From: Bacillota bacterium
GTDB taxonomy: Bacteria > Bacillota > Bacilli > Bu12
DNA: 37,268 nucleotides
Assembly: GCA_014896485.1 (NCBI GenBank)
Contig: JADBKH010000022.1
Coordinates: 1-37,268 of the forward strand
Direction: 5' to 3'
Shown here: positions 1 to 1,046 of the stretch, piece after piece
How the letters are laid out: each line of letters begins with the position of its first letter
How positions within the stretch are numbered: the stretch's first letter is position 1
The notes under the pieces: generated by a model
Seen by the model: the letters and a program-made list of their open reading frames with translations, nothing else
Database searches by the model: none
Told to the model about the DNA's origin: nothing
Program-made: the position numbers and the translations under genes

Positions 1-1046
1 AAGACCCTCTACTGCGCAGCGAAAAGGGAAAATTCAAACCAGAAGATGAATGGCTTTGGGTTGAGAATGCACACCCAGCAATTTTAACTCCTGAAGAGGC
101 CGAAGCGGCTATCAAAATCCTTGAAACACGTGGCCCATGGGGTGGAGTTTCGAGAACTGACGAATCCCCGTATCTTTTCTCAGTAGACAATTCCAATGGT
201 GAGACGCTGTTCACCTGTAAACGGTGCGGCGGACACGTAAGGGGTCATCAGAAGGGCAAAGACCAAAAATTCTATGGATGCCATAATGCAATATCCCAAG
301 GGAAGTATGGGGACTGTGGCTCGTTATGGTTAGTGCGGAAAGACTTTTTGGAGCAGTGCGTCGTGGATACGGTAATTCAACGGTATAGTAGCGGGGAGTT
401 TGTCCAAGCAGTATTGGAGAAAGTCAACCAATCAATCCACGATTTGAACCAGAACGGGAGCGACGAGCTTCAACATTTGGACAAAGCCATCGCTCAACAA
501 CATAAGGTTTTCCAAAACCTCGTTGAAACGGTGAAATTGACTGGACCCTCAATCGCCTTGGCAAAAGAAATACGAGCGGCCGAACAGGAAATCAAGAAAC
601 TTGAGGAGAAACGTACAAAACTCACTCAAGAACTTCAGCCCCTAGAGCCGATCGACATTCAGTATCTGAAGGCCTTGTTGGATGACCTTGCATTAGTAAT
701 GAAGTCGGGCACCAACAAGCAAAAACGTGAGATGATTCGAGCGTTCGTCAGCAAAATGGAGTTCGACCCGGATACTCGCAAAATTGATGTATATTTGTGG
801 CCTACCCCCCTCGCTGGAGGTGACCACTACATAAAGAAGTCGAAGCACATTTTTCTATGCTTCGACCGGGTTAAATCGAATGGTGGAGGCGACGGGAGTC
901 GAACCCGCGTCCGGAGGTCACGTGCGGCGAGTCTCTCCGAGCGCAGCTCCGGTTTATTTTCGATCGCGGCCGCCCCGGAGCCAGGTGAACCTACGATCCA
1001 GCCTGCTGTACGCTCCCCGACGGTTTACAGGCTTTCCGCCAGGTAA
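1..1046 (+). CDS. Large serine recombinase, C-terminal part (cut by window edge)
   Basis: Open in frame 3 from the window edge; the catalytic serine domain lies outside. What remains is the end of the Recombinase domain, a zinc-ribbon (a CxxC pair around 213-226, with further Cys around 280-310), and a long charged coiled-coil (about 420-640). This order is typical of large serine recombinases that integrate phages and genomic islands. Composition is visibly AT-richer (about 45% GC in sampled lines) than the host genes (often near 60%), which suggests transfer. The gene points at, and runs into, the 3' end of ssrA. There is no stop before the tmRNA, so the frame continues antisense through ssrA to a TAA at 1044-1046, giving the protein 54 junction-encoded residues. 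The natural end in the excised element may differ. Family is clear; the exact C-terminus and activity are inferred. Confidence 0.85.
   Translation, partial: DPLLRSEKGKFKPEDEWLWVENAHPAILTPEEAEAAIKILETRGPWGGVSRTDESPYLFSVDNSNGETLFTCKRCGGHVRGHQKGKDQKFYGCHNAISQGKYGDCGSLWLVRKDFLEQCVVDTVIQRYSSGEFVQAVLEKVNQSIHDLNQNGSDELQHLDKAIAQQHKVFQNLVETVKLTGPSIALAKEIRAAEQEIKKLEEKRTKLTQELQPLEPIDIQYLKALLDDLALVMKSGTNKQKREMIRAFVSKMEFDPDTRKIDVYLWPTPLAGGDHYIKKSKHIFLCFDRVKSNGGGDGSRTRVRRSRAASLSERSSGLFSIAAAPEPGEPTIQPAVRSPTVYRLSAR
839..866 (-). terminator. Hairpin downstream of ssrA, probable terminator supplied by the island
   Basis: A perfect 9-bp inverted repeat (GTCGAAGCA / TGCTTCGAC, 10-nt loop) lies 14 nt beyond the tmRNA CCA end. 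Read on the minus strand it is followed by TTCTTTAT, so it could end ssrA transcription. It also lies within the last recombinase codons before the junction, so it may instead be part of the recombinase's attachment-site dyad. Confidence 0.5.
876..900. other. Candidate attachment-site junction (att) at the ssrA 3' end
   Basis: The recombinase gene meets the last bases of ssrA here, with the CCA end at 881-883 on the complementary strand. Integration at the 3' end of tmRNA genes by serine and tyrosine recombinases is well known. The exact crossover cannot be set because the other junction is outside the window. Confidence 0.45.

Follow-up and report, generated by a model that had tools for sequence, protein, structure and literature searches.

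Archaeal integrases of the SSV type are tyrosine recombinases whose attachment (att) site lies inside the integrase gene, and integration splits that gene. The case described here differs in that a serine recombinase would exchange only the tail lying past its folded body. Closer to it are the ssrA islands of Dehalococcoides, in which the dsiB gene always overlaps its att site and reaches its stop codon beyond the island; it was proposed that dsiB may reach full function only when on the circle, or when next to another island that carries the needed 3′ fragment (McMurdie et al. 2011, PMC3146451). In mycobacteriophage BPs, integration changes the C-terminus of the repressor, and the loss of a degradation tag was measured (PMC4557955).

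The window, by which we mean the whole stretch of DNA analysed, is the entire contig C15 (37,268 nucleotides) of a draft genome of 2.17 Mb in 65 contigs. Judged against the open-licence literature, it is a further case of the Dehalococcoides-type overlap known since 2011: its integrase gene overlaps the att site and has no stop before the island edge, which is the trait of the DsiA/DsiB module. A first reading of the sequence alone had drawn this parallel, correctly so, since PMC3146451 reports the same overlap for dsiB. As in the DsiA/DsiB islands, a serine recombinase gene at the edge overlaps the ssrA att site and stops only beyond the island, tandem islands are also found in the relatives, and a DsiA-like small resolvase-domain gene stands beside the integrase in L003, G169 (Pfam) and G404 (sequence resemblance). 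The Dehalococcoides islands differ in having a 20 bp repeat and a T-loop insertion, whereas here a core of 11-12 bp lies at the extreme 3′ end of ssrA. The excised C-terminus was left open in PMC3146451, whereas the left arms described below carry what appears to be a constrained tail. BPs is alike in that the att site lies within a gene whose product has its C-terminus altered by integration; it differs in that the gene is a repressor and the functional consequence was measured there.

The recombinase gene and its run into ssrA

The window opens within a forward-strand ORF (3-1046) whose 5′ end is open, the contig start falling inside the gene. Judged from its domain matches, this ORF encodes the C-terminal portion (3-881) of a large serine recombinase, which would be the integrase of the island. 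A zinc beta-ribbon domain was identified at 207-374 (Pfam PF13408, Zn_ribbon_recom, residues 69-124, E 1e-6) and the ORF also matches PHROG 95 'integrase' (2.7e-25). The closest full-length recombinase, L003 from an Alicyclobacillus MAG, is 80% identical to that of the window and is followed by L004; L003 carries Resolvase, Recombinase and Zn_ribbon domains, of which the window holds the zinc ribbon together with the C-terminal part. The frame is intact for 293 codons.

The gene abuts the 3′ end of ssrA, which lies on the reverse strand (881-1264) and is left intact after integration, as found by ARAGORN and by a full-length match to Rfam RF00023 (124.5 bits); the tmRNA tag reading frame, AKEEDSFDGELVLEAAA followed by a stop, occupies 1120-1173 on the same strand (ARAGORN coding part 92-145). 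GC content steps at 881 from 46-48% before to 54-60% after, which we attribute to the island boundary. The sequence-only reading had claimed that the recombinase reaches the ssrA 3′ end without a stop and gains 54 antisense residues, and this was borne out: in the integrated state the tail spans 882-1043 on the forward strand and ends at a TAA (1044-1046). The length of such a tail has little meaning by itself, as judged from the ssrA sequences of the relatives. In most relatives antisense ssrA offers 42-76 open codons in the frame of the recombinase, and a few have an early stop.

It had also been anticipated that a direct repeat of the ssrA 3′ end would mark the other end of the island. This was sought and not found here: even with up to 3 mismatches allowed, the 25-base ssrA end does not occur again in the genome of the window, because the remaining island is not in the assembly. 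The same genome has no PF07508 Recombinase domain anywhere, no left-arm sequence like that of the nearest relatives, and only a chance copy of the 11-base left-end core, inside a spermidine-synthase-like frame. Since the assembly lacks its left end and the 5′ half of its recombinase gene, the excised tail of the window is inferred from relatives. Phage and plasmid records searched with a full-length relative gave no useful match, viral contigs carrying the subfamily of the window were not found, while the second subfamily has 80 such loci. Nor was a circular form seen for the subfamily to which the window belongs. The window and L013 (end of G148 C14) are contigs of unrelated draft genomes that both break within the island recombinase near ssrA, as would be expected if the population were mixed for the island.

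The attachment core and the two ends of the gene

The attachment core is TGGTGGAGGCGA, 12 bp (881-892), whose in-frame translation is (N)-Gly-Gly-Gly-(D/E) and within which the crossover would take place. The core is common to both ends of the G169 island and to left ends elsewhere, and sequences diverge immediately past it; in the relatives the part common to both ends is 11-12 bp. We examined ten recombinases abutting ssrA (the window, L003, L004, L011, L013, L016, L017, L110, L112 and L113), which span at least three subfamilies and came in part from searches of the class and one family. All ten genes reach the core without a stop and translate it in one shared frame, giving Gly-Gly-Gly-(Asp/Glu/Gly) except in L113, where it is Gly-Ala-Glu. 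The spacer ahead of the core varies by whole codons, even with the extra 20-residue stretch of subfamily 3, and L115, a related recombinase away from ssrA, has its stop at the end of its fold. Where measured directly, the integrated antisense tails are 6-76 residues long, with L110, L112 and L113 inside that range. For one gene, 35 open codons before the core have a probability of about 0.19 by chance, so a single gene is weak evidence, and it is the ten loci together with the left arms that carry the argument. Compared across subfamilies with different spacers, the shared frame past the ssrA end is not a matter of chance.

Both ends of the island were located on one contig in four genomes, 17.8-55 kb apart. 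The left end is laid out as a terminator, then TGGTGGAGGCGA or a variant of it, then the left arm. In G169 the ends lie at C21:313 and 21129, 20.8 kb apart, and the left one reads as a host-type terminator, GGTGGAGGCGA and then GGCTCCTCGGCCTGAAATCCTCAGG...; searched by similarity against its genus, the host flank of this left end matched in its first 76 bases alone, at many places. G323 (55 kb), G389 (17.8 kb) and G298 (23 kb) each have one plausible left end upstream of their recombinase. Joining the left arm to the recombinase keeps the frame open in all four, and the joined tails in this set are GGGEAPRPEILRYTIYV-stop, GGGGATPVKNLSFTTVARYVKN-stop, GGGEAHPEINLSIVKPLRIVRGE... and YGAEAWTCRATIRRGLLLELYEIAV-stop. 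Further tails, GGGEAPRSEILKYTLYV-stop and GGGEGTPTVTLLEEFSFVI-stop, come from G404, each sharing a contig with its recombinase. In the free or left-arm forms examined the stop comes 10-32 residues past the core, with the exception of a left end on G406 C55 (L089, C55:109966), which gives a two-residue tail, GGGEPC-stop, with host-type terminator and core present. Pairing of a left arm on G228 C10 with the recombinase on G228 C20 by contig order was dropped, because the C20 end has the leftmost gene of the G169 island and no core, and an intervening piece is probable.

Both endings also occur naturally, as seen in a pair of phage contigs from metagenomes, L174 and L175, which share 99.5% identity along 3.1 kb that contain the recombinase. 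Past AGTGGAGCTGA, tmRNA sequence follows in L174, whereas L175 goes on with an amidase gene and with holin-like and tail-like genes, as named from their translations. The C-termini are accordingly GAEGNRTPVRKPIHCSISHHSQSFNIPSV in L174 and GAEPNNLLPLSISVYRRSDLTLINFYLLKQVA in L175, the latter being a probable free form by its gene order, in records not classed as circular. Similarly, of two 97% identical recombinases, that of G406, located at ssrA, ends in GGGDGS-stop and that of G404, ahead of another island, in GGGEGTPTVTLLEEFSFVI-stop. The proposal of the sequence-only reading that integrated and excised forms have different C-termini is thus confirmed in the relatives, by the same-contig islands and the natural phage pair, and by extension it would hold for the window. 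The near-identity of the G406 and G404 genes (L016 and L090) across two genera points to recent transfer of one element.

Predicted terminators at ssrA

A candidate intrinsic terminator for ssrA lies within the recombinase frame at 838-867 on the reverse strand, where a 12-bp stem, GGTCGAAGCA...TGCTTCGACT, is followed by TCTTTATG. The hairpin on the ssrA strand has a folding energy of -18.3 kcal/mol (z -4.5) and is shared by L003, L004 and L011. Between the window and L004 a T-A pair of the stem becomes G-C and, with it, Ser and Asp become Ala and Ala; since the paired change alters two amino acids, the stem and not the protein appears to be conserved there. Subfamily 3 has another hairpin at the same place (G406 attR), and a clear terminator hairpin was not seen in L017, L110 and L113. 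All ten left ends that were folded have an ssrA-strand hairpin just outside the core, mostly with a clear T-run, and in an empty site (G264 C36) the terminator stands immediately beside ssrA. The recombinase end would thus supply a new predicted terminator for ssrA, termination at the hairpin being itself inferred; this hints at how tmRNA transcription is still brought to a stop in an island carrier once the host terminator is displaced. The G264 MAG has an occupied ssrA site (C87, L004), the empty one (C36, L031) and a contig with a different ssrA (C127), which points to contamination or a mixture of strains; in L004 the recombinase gene carries a frameshift and has a transposase-like ORF directly upstream.

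The exchanged tail and its possible meaning

Taken together, it is very probable that the island recombinase gene spans the att site, and that integration swaps its excised tail for an antisense-ssrA tail and supplies a terminator to ssrA. This reading builds on the frame, the core, the terminator hairpins and the tail swap in relatives, all of which were observed directly. According to it, the window would start within a genomic island inserted at the ssrA 3′ end, on the side that carries the integrase, with TGGTGGAGGCGA read as a Gly-Gly-Gly linker right after the folded body of the enzyme. On the excised circle the gene would run into the other end of the island and stop after a short tail. 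Upon integration this short tail would be left at the opposite end of the island, and the gene would instead read antisense ssrA, for 54 residues here; likewise, the recombinase 3′ end would give ssrA a new intrinsic terminator while its own is moved to the far end. The enzyme would mostly tolerate the swap, which need not be a required switch.

A fold model of the free-form relative L175 has a mean pLDDT of 80.8 for the body and about 33 for residues 490-525. The model predicts, with very low confidence for the tail, that this part is disordered and outside the folded body, so that the exchange of tails would take place outside the folded enzyme. It is likely from this model that the integrated and excised forms are both active recombinases. 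An AlphaFold model of the subfamily of the window was set aside, as too few sequences were available and the mean pLDDT was 51.

The excised tail shows signs of being coding sequence. Eleven genomic left arms or junctions were picked because they have the core DNA together with a terminator or the end of a recombinase gene upstream, and in every one the recombinase frame runs for 13 codons or more without a stop. In 20 arms, nine of them viral and picked for having an open frame, this frame stays open for a median of 17.5 codons, and the two alternative frames for 5 and 10.5. Where left arms differ from one another, first, second and third codon positions account for 7, 6 and 21 of the differences (P = 0.002), in a test of three pairs that were chosen by us and with small counts. 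Excised tails are alike between genera and families (GGGEASPLKNLSITTEIRYRK and GGGGATPVKNLSFTTVARYVKN, for example), and by manual count 12 of 20 end in A, V, I or C as against none of 10 integrated tails, which end in Arg, Asp, Pro or Ser. The open frames and the excess of differences at third positions suggest that the excised tail is constrained as coding sequence. The beta-strand propensity of the tails (1.085, against 1.013 and 1.044 in the other frames) was too slight for a structural claim.

What the swap does can be read in more than one way. We lean slightly towards a plain by-product, in which overlap of gene and site saves space and holds integrase and site together, the swap being without effect in either state. 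The core follows the folded domain and encodes a Gly linker, in tandem islands the inner recombinase receives the tail of its neighbour, and the integrated tails differ freely from host to host in sequence as well as in length (6-76 residues), which argues against a specific role for them. Third-position bias and the recurrent motifs of the excised tails, on the other hand, suggest that the excised tail is not free to vary. The same constraint, with the similarity across genera and families, would fit a functional switch, where a tail encoded at attP alters the stability, partner binding or direction of the recombinase and is removed by integration. The A, V, I or C endings are possible protease signals, and the BPs repressor, which loses its degradation tag on integration, is a precedent (PMC4557955). 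Against this stand the disordered tail and intact body of the L175 model, and the fact that ssrA-derived tails are non-independent samples, Arg-rich by composition; we consider a switch of this kind rather unlikely. The suggestion of the sequence-only reading, that the swap could turn the enzyme from an integrative into an excisive form, is so far not supported. It is equally doubtful, and perhaps a shade more so, that the attP-spanning tail is a working control element, such as a protease signal or a tail that binds a partner, whose removal at ssrA shifts integrase stability or direction. If it were, ssrA islands and phages of several bacterial groups would share a self-acting sensor of integration. 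A regulatory role for the excised tail is thus a possible lead and not a result.

Two further readings concern the locus itself. The recombinase might be the remnant of a decayed island with an accidental open frame into ssrA, as the presence of a fragment alone and the frameshifted L004 gene beside a transposase-like ORF could indicate; we regard this as improbable, given that the truncation is the contig start, the frame is intact over its 293 codons and read-through occurs in ten loci. That the assembly fused an unrelated recombinase to ssrA might be thought of for a draft genome whose contig ends 880 bp ahead of ssrA with a GC step at the junction. The island boundary accounts for that step, and a recombinase 80% identical has a base-identical junction with a different ssrA on a 223-kb contig of another assembly, making such a chimera extremely improbable.

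For an att-spanning gene as proposed here, gene catalogues would give such integrases C-termini that belong to the host tmRNA, and cloned integrases may bear the wrong tail; to find the constrained tail, one has to look at the circle or at the island's far end. The left arms provide sequences for asking the question of McMurdie et al. in Bacilli and in a phage.

The islands of the relatives were also of note in themselves. In G404, contigs C100 and C1 (L018-L024, L090 and L091) carry serial ssrA-core junctions with at least two recombinases, so that many ssrA islands may stand there in tandem, in a large array resembling the high-plasticity region of Dehalococcoides. The 20.8-kb ssrA island of G169 (L028, C21:313-21129) resembles a defence island: named from translations alone, its cargo comprises a restriction-type helicase and DNA methylase-like pair, an SNF2-type helicase, two more serine recombinases and a small resolvase-domain gene.
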